The position numbers and the translations under genes are program-made. This document shows, one piece after another, positions 5,117-14,835 of a DNA stretch of 64,000 bases (positions are counted from its first letter, which is position 1; every line of letters starts with the position of its first letter). Source of the DNA: Herbinix sp. (GTDB taxonomy: Bacteria; Bacillota; Clostridia; Lachnospirales; Lachnospiraceae); the NCBI GenBank assembly GCA_029238935.1, contig JAQZBN010000013.1, forward strand, positions 19,089 through 83,088, given 5' to 3'. The notes beneath the pieces are model-generated. The model searched no databases and was not told the origin of the DNA. It was given only the letters and a program-made list of their open reading frames with translations.

Positions 5117-6442
5117 TTAATTTTTTGCGTAAGGAGAAATCTGCTTTCGTAACAGGATGAGACAGATGACATTAGGAATTGTCATAAAAGCATTTACCAG
5201 ATCGGTCATCTCCCAAACCAGATCCAATGTCATAATGGAACCAACAAAAATCATAACAATATAACAGATGCGGTAGGTGCTTATACCGGATTTCCCGAAT
5301 AAGTATTCTACCGCTTTTTCTCCGATATAAGACCAACCGATTAAAGTGGCTATAGCAAAAGCGATTAAGGATAATCCGAGCATCTTATCTCCGAAGGGAA
5401 TTGCCCCAAAAGCAGCAGTTGTAAATTCACCGATCGAAAATCCTGCAACAGATTCAGGATTTTTTAATAGATTGGTTGTAATGACCAAACCAGTGATTGC
5501 ACACATCACAACGGTATCCCAGAAAGTAGCACTCATTGCAATTAACGCCTGTCTGGAAGGGTGAATTGTTTTTGCTTCTGCAGCCAAGATTGCAGCGGAG
5601 CCAAGTCCCGCTTCATTGGTAAATAAACCTCTGGCTATTCCATATCTGGTTGCTGATCGCAGAGTGCTGCCGATAAATCCACCAGCTACAGCAGCGGGAA
5701 GATGATCAGATACAAAAGCAGTTCGAAAGATATATCCAAAAGAGGGAAGAAGATAAGGTATATTAATAGCTATAATAATAAGGCAGCCAAACACATAGAA
5801 AAAACCCATGGCAGGTACGAGTTTGGTACAGATTTTTCCAATGGATTTTACACCTCCTACAATAACCAAACCTACGATTAGTGCTGCACTCATTCCTACG
5901 GCATATTCCGGAAGCCCCCACAGCGTATGAGCGGTTTCAGTGATAGCCCTGGATTGGGTTGAACATCCAACTCCATAAGATGCAATGATGGCAAAGAAAG
6001 CAAAGATAACTGCCAACCATTTTTTATGAAGTCCATCCTCCATAGCAAACATAGGTCCACCTATAAAAGATCCGTCCTCTCTTTTCCTTCTGTAGAGCAC
6101 ACCTAGAAAGCATTCGGCATAAGTGGTAGCCATGCCAAGAACACCGGTAAGCCAACACCAAAAGATTGCTCCGGGTCCACCAAGGGCCACTGCAGTTGAT
6201 ATTCCTACAATATTACCAGTTCCTATGGTTGCAGCCAGAGTGGCAGAGAGAGAGGCAAAAGCACTTAAGTTTCCTTCCACTGATTTATCCGGAGTCACAG
6301 ATAATTTTACCGCTTTCCCTATGTGCCGTTGAACGCCTTTTAGATGTATGGTGAAATAAATATGGATACCGAACAGAAGAATCGGCATGGGAATCCCCCA
6401 GAGAAAGTTGTTAATCGATTTTAAAGTTGTTATTATTGACAT
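5117..6442 (-). CDS. Sodium:alanine (AGCS) symporter family protein
   Basis: 'ATIGTGNIVGISTAVALGGPGAIFWCWLTGVLGMATTYAE' AGCS signature; multiple TM segments. Confidence 0.9.
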   Translation of the reverse strand: MSIITTLKSINNFLWGIPMPILLFGIHIYFTIHLKGVQRHIGKAVKLSVTPDKSVEGNLSAFASLSATLAATIGTGNIVGISTAVALGGPGAIFWCWLTGVLGMATTYAECFLGVLYRRKREDGSFIGGPMFAMEDGLHKKWLAVIFAFFAIIASYGVGCSTQSRAITETAHTLWGLPEYAVGMSAALIVGLVIVGGVKSIGKICTKLVPAMGFFYVFGCLIIIAINIPYLLPSFGYIFRTAFVSDHLPAAVAGGFIGSTLRSATRYGIARGLFTNEAGLGSAAILAAEAKTIHPSRQALIAMSATFWDTVVMCAITGLVITTNLLKNPESVAGFSIGEFTTAAFGAIPFGDKMLGLSLIAFAIATLIGWSYIGEKAVEYLFGKSGISTYRICYIVMIFVGSIMTLDLVWEMTDLVNAFMTIPNVICLILLRKQISPYAKN

Positions 6443-6566: not shown

Positions 6567-6595
6567 TTGACAAAGAATATACGATAAACTATACT
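6567..6595 (+). promoter_or_regulatory. Sigma-A-type promoter upstream of the hydrolase/MurF/Ddl/VanX unit
   Basis: TTGACA (6567-6572), 17-nt spacer, TATACT (6590-6595). Confidence 0.7.
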
Positions 6596-6630
6596 TTTAA
6601 AAAGTAAGTAATAAAAAAGAAGGTGATTCT

Positions 6631-7407
6631 TTGAAGATTAATATAAAAGGAATTGATACAAATTATATCGTCGAAGGGGAAGGTAAATGTGTCCTGTTAC
6701 TCCATGGTTGGGGTTCTAATATAAAGCTTTTTGAACATATTATATCTTGTCTTGAACGCTCTCATAAAGTAATAGCACTGGATATGCCGGGCTTTGGAGA
6801 TACAGCAGAACCGCCCTGTGCTTGGAGCGTAGATGATTACGTAGATTTTGTATTAGATTTCATGAAAAATTTTAAATGTAAAGATTTAATTTTGCTGGGC
6901 CATTCCTTTGGAGGAAGGGTTATTATTAAAATGAATAGCAGGGAAAATCTCCCATTTGGCGTGACTAAAGTCGTCTTAATAGACAGCGCGGGGATTCTAC
7001 CGAAGAAGAGTATGAAGCAAAAGATAAGAACGAGAATGTATAAGATCGGAAGAACACTTCTATCCATTTCTTTGGTAAGGAAATTGTATCCAAATGCCTT
7101 AGAGGACTTTAGAAAAAGAAATGGTTCAGCCGATTATAATAATGCAACACCTCTTATGAGACAGACCTTAGTGAAGGTTGTAAATGAAGATTTGAAACCC
7201 TTACTGAGCAAGATTAAGGCTCCAACTCTGCTTATTTGGGGAGATAAGGACACCGCAACACCGATTTCGGATGCAAAGTGTATGGAGGAATTAATTCCGG
7301 ATGCAGGTCTTGTTACGCTTCAAGGTGGAAGCCATTTTGCCTACTTAGAACAGCCGTTTCTGGTAAACAAGGTATTAGAATCATTTCTTGGAGTAAAGGA
7401 AGCATAA
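6631..7407 (+). CDS. Alpha/beta hydrolase (TTG start)
   Basis: 'LLLHGWGSN', nucleophile GHSFGG, 'LLIWGDKDTATP', catalytic His in 'GGSHFAYLEQP'. Confidence 0.85.
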   Translation: MKINIKGIDTNYIVEGEGKCVLLLHGWGSNIKLFEHIISCLERSHKVIALDMPGFGDTAEPPCAWSVDDYVDFVLDFMKNFKCKDLILLGHSFGGRVIIKMNSRENLPFGVTKVVLIDSAGILPKKSMKQKIRTRMYKIGRTLLSISLVRKLYPNALEDFRKRNGSADYNNATPLMRQTLVKVVNEDLKPLLSKIKAPTLLIWGDKDTATPISDAKCMEELIPDAGLVTLQGGSHFAYLEQPFLVNKVLESFLGVKEA

Positions 7408-7439
7408 TAGGTTGGTAAAGAAAGAATAGGAGTATCAGT

Positions 7440-9005
7440 ATGCAGTTAGCCATTGTTATATTATTTATCATATCATTTCTCGTTAGTTTTACCGTATACG
7501 CGACGTATTTAGTTCATATGTTTCAGCTGAACTCTTATAAACCAAAGGTTCAATTTCATTGGCTTTTTGTCAATAAAGGAAAAATCATTGGTCGAAGCAT
7601 ACTACCGCTCATAATTGGGATCTGGCTTTTCCTTTCTACATGGACGGGTATGACTGCAGCAGTAATACTTAATCTTTTAAGTGTTTATTTTTCCAGAAGA
7701 AAAAATGTGAAGAAACCGCTTGTATACACCAGTAGAATAAAGAGATTATTTGTTTCTATTTTTGTTTTATTTATTGTGGTGCTTATAGCTGCTTTCTTCT
7801 CATTGGATGAAAATAAATTAAGGGTAGTGGTGCTATTTCCTATATGTTATCTTCTGCTACCATTACTTGTATTGTTAGCTAATTTGGTGAATAAGCCGAT
7901 TGAAAAAAGTGTTAATCAGTGGTATATCAATGATGCGAAGAAGATTCTTGCTTCCATGCCAAATCTGACCGTAATCGGTATCACCGGTAGTTATGGAAAA
8001 ACCAGCGTTAAATTTTATCTGAGTAAATTATTATCTGCTCAGTATAATGTATTACATACACCGGAGAGCTTTAATACACCACTTGGAGTAGTTCGGACAA
8101 TACGTCAGGAATTAAGAGCTTTCCACGAGATATTCGTTTGTGAGATGGGTGCAAAGAATATCGGAGATATCAAGGAAATCTGTGATATCGTTCATCCGAA
8201 ACACGGCGTTATTACCTCCATTGGGCCGCAGCATCTGGAGAGCTTCTTAACCGTCGAAAATGTAATCAAAACAAAGTTTGAATTAGCAGATTCCGTCCCT
8301 GCTGATGGTATTGCTTTCTTAAATTATGATAATGAATATATCAGAGGACAAAAAAAATATAAGAATATTGTAAGTTATGGTGTAGAGGAAGAATTTAATC
8401 CAACCTATCTGGCGTACGAAATGAAAACTTCATCAAAGGGTTCCACTTTTAAGATGAAAGATACCGAAGGAAACGAACATACCTTTACGACGAAATTGAT
8501 CGGAAAGAATAATGTAGAAAATGTTGCCGGGGCCATTGCGGTTGCCAATAGCTTGGGAATTCCGATGGATAAGTTAATTCCACAGGTGAAGCAGTTAAAT
8601 CCGGTTGAACACCGTTTACAATTAATTAAAAGAAAAGATTTGGTCATTATTGATGACTGCTATAATTCAAATCCGAGTGGAGCGAAAGCAGCACTGGATA
8701 CTCTGCAGATGTTTGAAGGAGTTAAGATATTATTAACACCTGGAATGATTGAACTTGGCAGCAGACAGTATGAATGTAATAAAACATTTGGAACACAGGC
8801 AGCAGCTGTGTGTGATTATGTAGTGCTTGTGGGAGAGAATCAGACCAAACCGATCTTTGATGGCCTGGTTGAGGCAGGTTTTATAAAAGAAAAAATTCAC
8901 ATTGTATCTAATTTGCAAGAAGGCTTAAAAGCCGTCGATAGCATAAAAGCGTCCGGTCAGGAAAAAGTGGTACTGATGGAGAATGACTTACCGGATAACT
9001 ATTAA
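7440..9005 (+). CDS. murF: Membrane-anchored MurF-like Mur ligase
   Basis: About 150-aa N-terminal hydrophobic region, then 'VIGITGSYGKTSVKFYLSKLL', 'EMGAKNIGDIKEIC', 'DDCYNSNPSGAKAALDTL' Mur ligase motifs. Confidence 0.85.
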   Translation: MQLAIVILFIISFLVSFTVYATYLVHMFQLNSYKPKVQFHWLFVNKGKIIGRSILPLIIGIWLFLSTWTGMTAAVILNLLSVYFSRRKNVKKPLVYTSRIKRLFVSIFVLFIVVLIAAFFSLDENKLRVVVLFPICYLLLPLLVLLANLVNKPIEKSVNQWYINDAKKILASMPNLTVIGITGSYGKTSVKFYLSKLLSAQYNVLHTPESFNTPLGVVRTIRQELRAFHEIFVCEMGAKNIGDIKEICDIVHPKHGVITSIGPQHLESFLTVENVIKTKFELADSVPADGIAFLNYDNEYIRGQKKYKNIVSYGVEEEFNPTYLAYEMKTSSKGSTFKMKDTEGNEHTFTTKLIGKNNVENVAGAIAVANSLGIPMDKLIPQVKQLNPVEHRLQLIKRKDLVIIDDCYNSNPSGAKAALDTLQMFEGVKILLTPGMIELGSRQYECNKTFGTQAAAVCDYVVLVGENQTKPIFDGLVEAGFIKEKIHIVSNLQEGLKAVDSIKASGQEKVVLMENDLPDNY

Positions 9006-9028
9006 GCTTAGGAAAGGCAGGGGGAAAT

Positions 9029-10213
9029 ATGAAAATCAAAGTTGGAGTATTTTTTGGAGGAAAGAGTGTGGAGCATGAGGTTTCCATCATATCTGCTATT
9101 CAAGCAACTTATTCCTTTAACAAAGAGAAATACGAGATTATTCCCGTTTACATAACCAAAGAAAATCGAATGTTTGTAGGTGAAGAAATCGGCAAGATTG
9201 AAGCTTATAAGAACGTAAAAGGTCTGCTGAAGAACAGCAAGGAAATTATTTTAATTAATGAAAATAATAGATTAAATCTTGTATACTATCCAATTAAAAA
9301 GTTTGGTAACGCTGTATATGATTCCATTGATGTGGCATTTCCGATTGTTCATGGAACCAATGTGGAAGATGGTACCTTTCAGGGATATTTAAAACATTTG
9401 GGTATACCCTTTGTTGGCTGTGATGTATTAGCATCCGCAGTAGGTATGGATAAGTACGTAATGAAGACAATTTTAAAGGAAAGTGGTATTCCGGTACTGG
9501 ATTGCTGTTATTTTGATCAGAAGAGATATCAAAAGGATTCTGATACGATTATGGATGAGATAGAAGCTAAATTAGGTTATCCGGTTATCGTAAAACCTTC
9601 CAATCTTGGTTCAAGCGTAGGAATTAAAGTAGCCAGAGATAGAGATTCGTTATCTGAAGCATTGGAATATGCGTTCCAATATGCGAAGAAAGTACTTGTG
9701 GAACATGCGATCACAGCACTACGAGAGATTAATTGCTCCGTAATTGGTGATTATGAAGAAGCGCTTGCTTCTGAATGTGAAGAACCGATTACAACCGATG
9801 AAATATTAAGCTATGAAGATAAATATCTCTCCGGTGGGAAAGGAAATGGATCCAAGGGAATGTCGTCTACCAAACGTCAGCTACCGGCACAGATTACGAA
9901 AGAGCAGCGGGATACCATACGAGATCTGGCTGTAAGAACCTTCCAAGCATTGGATTGTAACGGAGTAGCCCGTATTGACTTAATGATTGATAAGGATACC
10001 GGAAAGATTTGGGTAAATGAGATTAATACCATTCCTGGCTCTCTGGCTTTTTATTTATGGGAAGCGTTAGGAATGAAATATATTGAGTTACTAGACCGTT
10101 GTGTAAGCCTGGCACTGAAAAGAGACAGAGAGAATAAAGAGATTGTGTATTCCTTTGATACGAACATCTTATCCGGTGTTTCCTTTGGTGGAATGAAAGG
10201 TCTGAAAGGATAA
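9029..10213 (+). CDS. ddl: D-alanine--D-alanine ligase family
   Basis: 'VGVFFGGKSVEHEVSIISA', 'PIVHGTNVEDGTFQGYLKHLGIPFVGCDVLASAVGMDK', 'VKPSNLGSSVGI', 'VNEINTIPGSLAFYLWEA'. Confidence 0.92.
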   Translation: MKIKVGVFFGGKSVEHEVSIISAIQATYSFNKEKYEIIPVYITKENRMFVGEEIGKIEAYKNVKGLLKNSKEIILINENNRLNLVYYPIKKFGNAVYDSIDVAFPIVHGTNVEDGTFQGYLKHLGIPFVGCDVLASAVGMDKYVMKTILKESGIPVLDCCYFDQKRYQKDSDTIMDEIEAKLGYPVIVKPSNLGSSVGIKVARDRDSLSEALEYAFQYAKKVLVEHAITALREINCSVIGDYEEALASECEEPITTDEILSYEDKYLSGGKGNGSKGMSSTKRQLPAQITKEQRDTIRDLAVRTFQALDCNGVARIDLMIDKDTGKIWVNEINTIPGSLAFYLWEALGMKYIELLDRCVSLALKRDRENKEIVYSFDTNILSGVSFGGMKGLKG

Positions 10214-10243
10214 TGATTTTTGTTAAAGTAAGATAGGAGTGAG

Positions 10244-10993
10244 ATGATGTATTATAGTCAGCCGATACCAAAGCTGGTTTTCCCTAATGTAAAGGAAGCA
10301 AACACATTGGAGAGTAATGAACCCCTCGTGGATTTTTACCAGATGAGTAAGGGCAATGATCGTATTTATCATGCCAAACCTATGTATTATCAGATGGGAG
10401 TTCATGGTGCATGCTCAAAATGCTATTTAAGGAAAACAGCAGCAGAAAAACTATTTCTGGCCGCATCCTTGTTGCCGGATGGGTTTAAGCTAAAGATATA
10501 TGATGCATGGAGACCTGCATTAGTACAACAAACGTTATATGACCAATATTACAGTATACAAAAAAGATTGCCACAGAATGCACATAAAACAGAAGAGGAG
10601 CTTCGTAATATAACGACGAAGTTCATTTCTTATCCCAGTAAAAATCCATTATTTCCGTTTGTACACTCTACAGGAGGAGCTGTAGACTTAACGATAGTGA
10701 ATGAACTAGGGGAAGAACTGGATATGGGCACCGGATTTGATGATTTTTCTGATAAGGCCAACACCTCTCATTATGAGGACAGTGTCCTAGCAACAGAACT
10801 TACCATGGAGAAAAATACATCTCATTTGATCCGTAACCATCGCCGATTACTCTATCATATTATGTCGGAAGCGGGATTTACGAATTTACCTTCCGAATGG
10901 TGGCATTACGATTATGGTGATCTGTTCTGGGGGTATTACAAAGAGAAACCATCCATTTATCAAGGTATATTTGAAATAACACAGGTAAATTAA
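10244..10993 (+). CDS. VanX-like D-Ala-D-Ala dipeptidase (M15D)
   Basis: 'KIYDAWRPALVQ', 'STGGAVDLTIV', 'MGTGFDDFSDKANTSHYE', 'SEWWHYDYGD' Zn-peptidase signature. Confidence 0.88.
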   Translation: MMYYSQPIPKLVFPNVKEANTLESNEPLVDFYQMSKGNDRIYHAKPMYYQMGVHGACSKCYLRKTAAEKLFLAASLLPDGFKLKIYDAWRPALVQQTLYDQYYSIQKRLPQNAHKTEEELRNITTKFISYPSKNPLFPFVHSTGGAVDLTIVNELGEELDMGTGFDDFSDKANTSHYEDSVLATELTMEKNTSHLIRNHRRLLYHIMSEAGFTNLPSEWWHYDYGDLFWGYYKEKPSIYQGIFEITQVN

Positions 10994-11046
10994 TAAGGAT
11001 AAAATAAATAAGAAAATTTAAAATAGGGTACATGGGAGGAAATCTT

Positions 11047-12144
11047 ATGTTAACACAGGAGAAAAAGGAGAAGAACCGGCGAGGTAGAAAATATGCTACG
11101 ATTATGCTTGCCTGTGTCTCTTTTATTGTTTGGCTGGTGATCCTTACAATTAAGTATTTTTTTACGGAGAGCAGAGGAATTTCATTTGATTTTAGTGGTC
11201 TCCTGGATGGGATTTTGGATAATCTCTTGGGTATCCTGCCTCCGATTATCATATTTAATTTTGCTTATGAGTATTTTACTCAGGAGTATGTTTCAGAAGA
11301 GATGTCGGAGCAGATAACACAGACCTTAATGAGCGATCCCAGAGCAATCTCCCGATTTGATAAGGAGGCAAAAAAGAAGTTCGTTCATACAACGCTTCTC
11401 TCGATGTTAAAGGAAGAACAGGGAAATATGGTTTATGAGATGATTAAACCATATATTGATTCTGAATATAACATAAGAAAATACTATAAATATAAGTTTA
11501 CCCTCAGTGAGTATCCGCAAAATCATAAGATTTTTTCTGGTCAGAAATATTACAGAGTACAAGAAAAATTAGCATATAAAAAACTTTATATTGCATCAAA
11601 TAAGTTTAGCAGTAATTTTAAAATAGGCTTTTTTATGGAAGAGATTGAATTAGACAGTGCTCTTAAGAATCAAACTTTCTTATTCCGGGAGGATCTGAAT
11701 ATTGCAGTTTCAGAGCTGAATCAATTAACTCAATTAAATGACAGCCAGAAAAGAGATTTTTTAATCAATGATATGAAGTTAAAGGTCTATATTGATAATA
11801 TAGAAGCAGCCATTAACTTTGTTCAAATCGATGAAAAAGGAATTTTGCTAGATATGCTATGTCAGCAAACAAATACAAGTGAAATCATGGTAGAAGTCGG
11901 TTTCCAAATGCCACAGTTAAAGACAAGAGGGAAAATATTTGCCTCCATTAGTGAACCAACCTTTAGTCCAAATATTGAACTTACCTATCCGGATGACAAG
12001 ATGAAAGTTATTATGATACCATTTTTAAACGGAAGTACTTCCAGTCAAGATGCTATGCATTATGAAGGTATCTGTGAAATCTTAGTTCAGGATGAATGGA
12101 TTATGCCTATGAGTGGTGTAACTTTTATTATTGAAATGAAATAA
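11047..12144 (+). CDS. Orphan membrane protein: two N-terminal TM segments plus about 280-aa soluble domain
   Basis: RBS GGGAGGA before ATG 11047 (ORF track starts at 11032); TM segments 'ATIMLACVSFIVWLVILTI' and 'LLGILPPIIIFNFAYEY'; family not recognised. Confidence 0.7.
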   Translation: MLTQEKKEKNRRGRKYATIMLACVSFIVWLVILTIKYFFTESRGISFDFSGLLDGILDNLLGILPPIIIFNFAYEYFTQEYVSEEMSEQITQTLMSDPRAISRFDKEAKKKFVHTTLLSMLKEEQGNMVYEMIKPYIDSEYNIRKYYKYKFTLSEYPQNHKIFSGQKYYRVQEKLAYKKLYIASNKFSSNFKIGFFMEEIELDSALKNQTFLFREDLNIAVSELNQLTQLNDSQKRDFLINDMKLKVYIDNIEAAINFVQIDEKGILLDMLCQQTNTSEIMVEVGFQMPQLKTRGKIFASISEPTFSPNIELTYPDDKMKVIMIPFLNGSTSSQDAMHYEGICEILVQDEWIMPMSGVTFIIEMK

Positions 12145-12192
12145 ATAGTTATAAAAATAAATAATGATAAAAAAGTAAATATCATACATACT

Positions 12193-12240
12193 AACAATAT
12201 AAGCATTTCTGAGTGTACAGAAATGCTTATATTGTTTTTA
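12193..12240 (+). terminator. Rho-independent terminator
   Basis: Perfect 19-bp hairpin AACAATATAAGCATTTCTG-AGTGTA-CAGAAATGCTTATATTGTT followed by TTTA. Confidence 0.9.
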
Positions 12241-12797: not shown

Positions 12798-13017
12798 ATG
12801 AAAGTTCTTAGTCAATAATCTAAATTATCAAAGAGTGGTTCCCTAAACAAAAATTACCATAATAATTCTCACAAATGCTGTTAACAATATCATTACAAGC
12901 AAAACAAAACGAAATCAATCGCGGTTGATACTTAACATAAAAGCCGCTGAACCTACAAAAAATTGATTTTGTAAATTGGTTGCTTTGATACTAAAAATTA
13001 TGGAGGTGAAAATTATT

Positions 13018-13248
13018 ATGGCAAGTAACAATAACAATAGTGGTTCTAACAGAGCAGAAGTACCTCAGGCTAGAGAAGCATTAGATCGCTTCAAGATGGA
13101 AGTTGCTAATGAAATCGGTGTTCCGTTAAAACAAGGTTACAATGGTGACCTTACTAGCAAACAGAACGGTTCTGTAGGTGGAGAAATGGTTAGACGTATG
13201 ATCAGAAGACAGGAAGAATCCATGTCTGGAACATCAAGCCAACAGTAA
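13018..13248 (+). CDS. Alpha/beta-type small acid-soluble spore protein
   Basis: 'EALDRFKMEVANEIGVPLKQGYNGDLTSKQNGSVGGEMVRRMI' SASP signature; RBS TGGAGGTGA places start at 13018 rather than 12976. Confidence 0.93.
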   Translation: MASNNNNSGSNRAEVPQAREALDRFKMEVANEIGVPLKQGYNGDLTSKQNGSVGGEMVRRMIRRQEESMSGTSSQQ

Positions 13249-13476: not shown

Positions 13477-14835
13477 ATGAATAACATGGGCAAGTATTTT
13501 GGAACAGATGGTTTTCGAGGAGAAGCAAATATTAATCTTACAGTAACACATGCTTATAAAGTAGGAAGATTCTTAGGTTATTATTATGGACAGGAGCATA
13601 AAGCAAAGATTGTTATTGGTAAAGACACAAGAAGATCCAGTTATATGTTTGAATACTCTTTAGTAGCAGGTCTTACTGCAAGTGGTGCAGATGTATATCT
13701 TCTCCATGTTACTACTACACCCAGTGTGTCTTATGTTGTACGTAGTGAAGGCTTTGATTGCGGTATTATGATTTCTGCAAGTCACAATCCATTTTATGAT
13801 AACGGAATCAAAGTAATTAATGGGAATGGTTATAAATTGGAAGCAGAAGTTGAAGATAAGATTGAAAAATACATAGATGAAGATAGAGATTCCCTTCCGT
13901 TTGCGACCGGTGAAAACATAGGAAGAACAATTGATTATGCAATGGGGAGAAATCGCTACATCGGATATTTAATTTCCTTAGCAACGAGATCATTTAAGGA
14001 TATGAAGGTTGGTCTTGATTTAGCCAATGGAGCAGCGACTTCTGTAGCCAAGGGAGTATTTGATGCTTTAGGTGCTAAGACCTACGTGATACATGGTGAA
14101 CCAAACGGAATTAACATCAATCAAGACTGTGGATCTACCCATATGAAAGAATTACAGAAGTTTGTGATAGAAAATAAGCTTGATGTGGGATTTGCTTACG
14201 ATGGAGATGCAGATCGATGTTTGGCAGTCGATGATAAAGGGAATATTATAGATGGAGATTTAATTCTTTACCTATGTGGCGTATATATGAAAGAACATAA
14301 TGATTTGGCTAATAACACCATAGTTACAACGATTATGTCAAATATCGGTCTTTACAAAGCACTGGATCAAAAAAATATCTCCTATGAGAAAACAGCCGTT
14401 GGTGATAAGTATGTATACGAAAATATGATGGCAAATGGTCACTCCATTGGTGGAGAGCAATCCGGTCATATTATCTTTAGTAAGCATGCTACTACCGGAG
14501 ATGGTATTCTTACTTCTTTAAAGATTATGGAAGTTATGTTGGAAAGTAAAAATACGTTATCTGAACTGCTTAAGGAGGTCGTATTATATCCACAACTTCT
14601 TAAAAACGTTAAGGTTGCAGATAAAAAGGCTGTAAAGGATGATCCTCAAGTAATCAAAGCTGTGTCAATGGTGGAAGAAGCTTTGGGAACGGACGGAAGA
14701 ATTCTTGTCAGAGAGAGTGGAACTGAACCGGTTATCCGTGTCATGGTAGAAGCCCAATCAGAAGACCTCTGTAAACAATACGCAGAACAGGTAATTCAGG
14801 TTATGAAAGACCAGGGACATGTAATATCTGCCTAA
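13477..14835 (+). CDS. glmM: Phosphoglucosamine mutase / phosphohexomutase
   Basis: 'KYFGTDGFRGEAN', 'ISASHNPFYDNGIKV', 'AYDGDADRCLAVD', 'RESGTEPVIRVMVE'. Confidence 0.85.
   Translation: MNNMGKYFGTDGFRGEANINLTVTHAYKVGRFLGYYYGQEHKAKIVIGKDTRRSSYMFEYSLVAGLTASGADVYLLHVTTTPSVSYVVRSEGFDCGIMISASHNPFYDNGIKVINGNGYKLEAEVEDKIEKYIDEDRDSLPFATGENIGRTIDYAMGRNRYIGYLISLATRSFKDMKVGLDLANGAATSVAKGVFDALGAKTYVIHGEPNGININQDCGSTHMKELQKFVIENKLDVGFAYDGDADRCLAVDDKGNIIDGDLILYLCGVYMKEHNDLANNTIVTTIMSNIGLYKALDQKNISYEKTAVGDKYVYENMMANGHSIGGEQSGHIIFSKHATTGDGILTSLKIMEVMLESKNTLSELLKEVVLYPQLLKNVKVADKKAVKDDPQVIKAVSMVEEALGTDGRILVRESGTEPVIRVMVEAQSEDLCKQYAEQVIQVMKDQGHVISA

Follow-up and report, generated by a model that had tools for sequence, protein, structure and literature searches.

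Does a locus that encodes a MurF, a D-Ala-D-Ala ligase (Ddl) and a VanX-like dipeptidase side by side belong to glycopeptide resistance, or does it serve ordinary cell wall synthesis? We studied such a five-gene unit at positions 6567-12240 of a 64,000-nucleotide stretch of the genome of Herbinix sp. (contig JAQZBN010000013.1; this whole stretch is called the window). An earlier note on this DNA had offered two readings, a regulator-free pathway related to glycopeptide resistance or a housekeeping murF-ddl locus to which a dipeptidase had been added. The latter was right in essence: the unit holds sole copies, and the dipeptidase and the orphan protein that follows it are an add-on to a wider three-gene core. 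What had been missed is that the MurF of the unit is of a noncanonical membrane type, and that the triad of alpha/beta hydrolase, membrane MurF and Ddl replaces a conventional ddl-murF pair at the same chromosomal positions in congeners. We read the locus, with a probability of about 0.78, as an alternative form, with interchangeable alleles, of the housekeeping genes that supply the D-Ala-D-Ala terminus of the peptidoglycan stem.

Sole copies and a membrane form of MurF

A count of murF, ddl and vanX-like paralogs, proposed by the earlier note as a check, returned one each (MurF, true Ddl and M15 peptidase) in the whole genome assembly (5.37 Mb, 95% complete, 8% contamination), all at this locus. 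The further Mur-type ligases of the genome read as MurC, MurD, MurE, MurE and FolC, and the two other weak matches to Dala_Dala_lig were, judged from their reading frames, a carbamoyl-phosphate synthase and a biotin carboxylase-type protein. The mraY-murD-ftsW stretch of the same genome contained no murF, and the neighbouring pathway steps MurC, MurD, MurE and MraY were all present. The two MurE-type ligases (L005/L006, contigs C86 and C42) differ from each other: one lies beside priA and the second at an unrelated place, adjoining a leucine-rich-repeat-like surface protein.

The membrane MurF (7440-9005, plus strand, 521 aa) lacked the N-terminal UDP-binding domain PF01225 and presented instead about five hydrophobic, predicted transmembrane (TM) helices (residues 1-145), followed by the middle and C-terminal Mur ligase domains, for which MurF was the best match by sequence. 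PF01225 was likewise absent from three relatives and present in three conventional congeners. With the TIGR01143 model, whose curated cut-off of 288.6 bits was used to call the presence of a conventional MurF, the window protein scored 226 bits; within the genus the conventional proteins scored 424-433 bits versus 220-232 bits for the membrane form, a clean separation. A structure model of the membrane MurF (58 sequences) reached a pLDDT of 92 and a pTM of 0.86, and the best PDB matches of its soluble part were MurF crystal structures. The protein thus shares with conventional soluble MurF (PDB 4cvk, 3zl8, 1gg4) both ligase domains, the P-loop, the conserved Lys279, the YN(S/A)NP motif, a ddl neighbour and the chromosomal sites occupied in congeners (see below), whereas it differs from them in the missing PF01225, the TM helices, the score under the TIGR01143 cut-off and its association with an alpha/beta hydrolase gene and the gene for a long-loop Ddl. 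In the membrane part, residues H26, Q29, Y33, K91, T97, R99, R102, N148 and N151 were conserved at 95% or more (n=76 sequences), and the loops at residues 29-46 and 85-100, short and basic, lay on the predicted cytosolic side. Such near-invariant polar and basic residues suggest that the membrane domain does more than anchor the enzyme.

A scan of species-level genomes found at least 567 relatives, and the neighbourhoods of the best 80 were read. The core consisted of three genes in the order alpha/beta hydrolase, membrane MurF and Ddl; the hydrolase and the Ddl were each present in 76/80 of these best relatives, and all four relatives without the hydrolase were cut at a contig end. The hydrolase of the window (6631-7407, plus strand, 258 aa; Abhydrolase in Pfam/NCBIfam) has a Ser92/Asp207/His235 triad, which 95% or more of 67 relatives retain, and is for this reason probably an active enzyme, presumably with a role in the cassette. 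The Ddl (9029-10213, plus strand, 394 aa) passed the cut-offs for the Ddl N and C domains and that of the long omega-loop subfamily NF002528 (332 bits; cut-off 262), and its omega loop carried the K265-Y266 pair of the D-Ala type. The two MurF types were almost mutually exclusive: 34 of 35 further genomes with a membrane MurF, and the window's own genome (35/36 altogether), had no conventional MurF over the TIGR01143 cut-off. As the sole candidate in these genomes, and one exchanged in place with the conventional form, the membrane MurF would supply the MurF step of the cell. No description of such a MurF was found in the open-access literature searched, the coverage of which was limited; it is apparently an undescribed, widespread variant of the MurF/Ddl step.

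Some departures from the usual arrangement were also seen. The Ddl downstream of the membrane MurF in genome G038 (L068:2587-4572) carried a low-complexity, Asn/Asp-rich C-terminal extension of about 265 aa. At L112:9341-11560 and L143:9317-11599 the membrane MurF and the hydrolase occurred with no Ddl in the flank; these metagenome-assembled genomes are labelled Synergistaceae, which may reflect wrong labels or gene transfer.

Proposed exchange of MurF types within the genus

The membrane form was present in 6/34 species of the genus and the conventional MurF in the rest, and both types occupied the same chromosomal sites. At site 1 the gene order was DJ1, alanine symporter, X, in some cases a small acid-soluble spore protein (SASP), and glmM, where X was a conventional murF-ddl pair in G002, G011, G015 and G023 and the cassette in the window's genome. 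The flanks of this site in the window, both outside the unit, are the sodium:alanine symporter (AGCS) gene on the left (5117-6442, minus strand) and glmM on the right (13477-14835, plus strand). G033, which has the membrane form, showed the same left flank, and its contig stops before glmM. A SASP-like open reading frame (ORF) lies at 12976-13248, in the interval between the unit and glmM, and was also seen at the conventional site of G015. At site 2 the order was metF, phosphoesterase, X and nitroreductase, with a conventional X in G004, G006, G013 and G032 (partly seen in G008, G014 and G016); G022 and G001 carried the cassette there, the latter across two contigs, and G019, also of the membrane type, showed only the nitroreductase side.

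The membrane form was scattered over a PriA tree of 30 congeners, on which the MurF type had to change 6 times, with well-supported branches forcing at least 5 of these changes. A single origin of the cassettes of both sites within the genus was rejected, since they did not form one clade (approximately unbiased test, AU p = 1.5e-5). In our reading, one allele of an essential module has repeatedly taken the place of the other, a recurrence that is a natural indication that both MurF forms supply the same step. The cassette and the soluble ddl-murF pair would then be interchangeable alleles, with several replacements of one by the other within the genus.

The M15 dipeptidase, the orphan protein and the layout of the unit

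The last two genes of the unit encode an M15 dipeptidase (10244-10993, plus strand, 249 aa; Peptidase_M15) and an orphan membrane protein with two predicted TM helices (11032-12144, plus strand, 370 aa). They are an accessory, rare addition to the core triad: both were intact in 3/34 congeners (the window's own genome, G001 and G022), directly after the Ddl and in the same order, the orphan was found only together with the M15 gene, and neither occurred in any of the best 80 relatives outside the genus. The conditions under which the earlier note would have been refuted gave a mixed picture: no second murF/ddl set was found, and the M15 gene stands beside ddl in G001 and G022, with a remnant in G033, but in 0/80 of the wider relatives. 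In G022 the reading frames overlap: that of M15 shares 11 nt with ddl and 4 nt with the orphan. The remnant in G033 (L062:6764-7420) is an in-frame fusion of the first ~70 M15 codons to the last ~145 orphan codons, which may be a true deletion remnant or an assembly error. The orphan had no match in Pfam, NCBIfam, PHROGs, PADLOC or plasmids, and its structure model (pLDDT 43) was unusable.

In an alignment with VanX (1r44) the zinc ligands H141, D148 and H221, the catalytic Glu E218 and the transition-state Arg R90 of the M15 protein were intact, and the residue aligned with VanX Ser114 differed. Its scores were under both equivalogs, VanX (39.9 bits; cut-off 320) and DdpX (84.9 bits; cut-off 176). 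E. coli ddpX sits in a transport operon. The M15 protein resembles the DdpX-type dipeptidases in its family, its conserved catalytic residues and the absence of an apparent signal peptide, and also in that distant clostridial relatives adjoin a DUF819 permease gene in four other genomes (L188:7631-9596, L189:7624-9677, L190:7360-9385 and L015:981-2876); it differs in scoring under the DdpX cut-off and in having ddl and the orphan as neighbours. The DUF819 adjacency suggests, by analogy with DdpX, a possible dipeptide uptake and recycling pair; our literature search found no paper on DUF819 together with a dipeptidase. The M15 protein most likely acts in the cytosol as a D,D-dipeptidase, recycling or editing dipeptides of the D-Ala-D-Ala type; it is an optional extra, and the orphan would be its membrane partner. 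A ligase and a dipeptidase in one compartment could form a futile cycle, as the earlier note had warned; recycling imported dipeptides or removing faulty ones would avoid it.

The five same-strand genes described from the sequence were all present, and Pfam/NCBIfam agreed with the gene calls, the fifth being without a family. The promoter-like site TTGACA-N17-TATACT (6567-6595, plus strand) was also there, matching the consensus at 11/12 positions and suitably placed for the TTG start of the first ORF at 6631, which has the ribosome-binding site AAGAAGGTGA. Consensus-like sites as a class were not enriched in the region (38 found versus 39 expected from shuffles), so this candidate is backed by its position only. 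The gaps between the genes, given earlier as 25-55 nt, were indeed short and slightly tighter, 23-38 nt (32, 23, 30 and 38 nt in order). The unit ends in an intrinsic terminator (12193-12239, plus strand; hairpin 12193-12236) with the perfect 19-bp stem that had been reported, a 6-nt loop and a short T tail; the hairpin had -24.6 kcal/mol and z = -8.3, and 0/200 shuffles equalled it. Only 3 nt of its T run are free, as the remaining Ts sit within the stem. The five genes are probably co-transcribed.

Alternative readings and meaning

The grouping of a MurF, a Ddl-family ligase and an M15 dipeptidase recalls the vanI and vanHAX clusters, and vanI clusters likewise contain vanX-murF and lack vanH (PMC4229326). 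One could imagine a constitutive, regulator-free van-like pathway that uses the dipeptidase to clear D-Ala-D-Ala and the ligase to produce a D-Ala-D-X depsipeptide or dipeptide. We consider it very improbable. As the earlier note had observed, no VanR/VanS, VanH or VanT adjoins the unit; its ligase is the only Ddl in the genome, keeps the K-Y pair of D-Ala-D-Ala ligases and passed the general D-Ala-D-Ala cut-offs but none for VanA/B/C/D/G/I, the M15 protein fell far under the VanX cut-off, and the wider triads have no dipeptidase. A van-type resistance cluster was consequently rejected, the more so as the same cut-offs recognized a true, complete one in congener G011 (L192:7666-15773; VanI/VanA-Sc-like, D-Lac type). 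That cluster encodes VanR, VanS, a DacA/VanY-like carboxypeptidase, VanH, the ligase, VanX, a MurF paralogue and VanZ; VanR and VanH scored over their cut-offs, VanS just under, the D-Ala-D-Lac ligase over that of VanI, and VanX reached 391 bits. It stands apart from a conventional ddl-murF pair that G011 keeps besides it, whereas the unit of the window holds the sole housekeeping copies. The M15 gene and the orphan might also be a separate mobile pair that came to lie downstream of ddl by coincidence, as could be argued from their presence intact in only 3/34 congeners, in two non-sister cassette lineages, and from M15 relatives elsewhere that are not beside ddl. This seems unlikely to us, given that all three intact pairs lie directly 3' of a long-loop Ddl in identical order, with overlapping reading frames in G022, and that the orphan had no plasmid match.

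Under the housekeeping reading, Ddl would make D-Ala-D-Ala and the membrane MurF would join this dipeptide to the stem tripeptide on the cytoplasmic side of the membrane. The form of the acceptor is a sub-question. The N domain is also missing from the Mur ligase MurT, whose substrate is lipid II; the MurT structure paper states that a UDP-MurNAc-binding domain would not be needed and would probably collide with the membrane (PMC6113224). The membrane MurF may by analogy use a lipid-linked tripeptide, since both enzymes lack the N-terminal UDP-binding domain; MurT, the partner of GatD in the lipid II amidotransferase, differs in having no membrane domain, a zinc ribbon, D-Glu as the residue acted upon and a distant sequence. 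That D-Ala-D-Ala is added at the membrane to lipid I/II-linked tripeptide, rather than to cytosolic UDP-MurNAc-tripeptide, in hundreds of Clostridia is a tentative proposal that we regard as somewhat doubtful. A tethered but otherwise ordinary MurF, still working on UDP-MurNAc-tripeptide and merely positioned near MraY by its membrane domain, has not quite an even chance and is compatible with a housekeeping role. Exchange with the conventional MurF at the same loci is simplest with an unchanged substrate and product, and the MurC, MurD, MurE and MraY steps are present, but the UDP-binding domain is gone and the near-invariant residues of the membrane domain exceed the needs of an anchor.

Several points weigh against the housekeeping reading as a whole. 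With 95% completeness and 8% contamination a second MurF could be missed in this assembly, although 34 other genomes agree, and one genome, G038, carries both MurF types. The PriA tree is a single-gene tree with several weak forks, which together with the draft state of the genomes is the main caveat on the number of swaps. The role of the M15 protein rests on its family membership and on distant relatives beside DUF819 permeases, and the enzymatic activities throughout are predicted from sequence.

MurF and Ddl are essential, near-universal enzymes and drug targets. In many gut Clostridia the only MurF found is a membrane protein that lacks the UDP-binding domain, and a sole MurF of this kind that swaps with the soluble form at the same loci in one genus would cast doubt on the textbook sequence of steps as well as on the spectrum of MurF/Ddl inhibitors; one purified enzyme could test the two together. 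If ligation to the lipid-linked tripeptide is true, MurF and MraY would act there in the opposite order to the textbook one, and both orders would exist as swappable alleles within a single genus.

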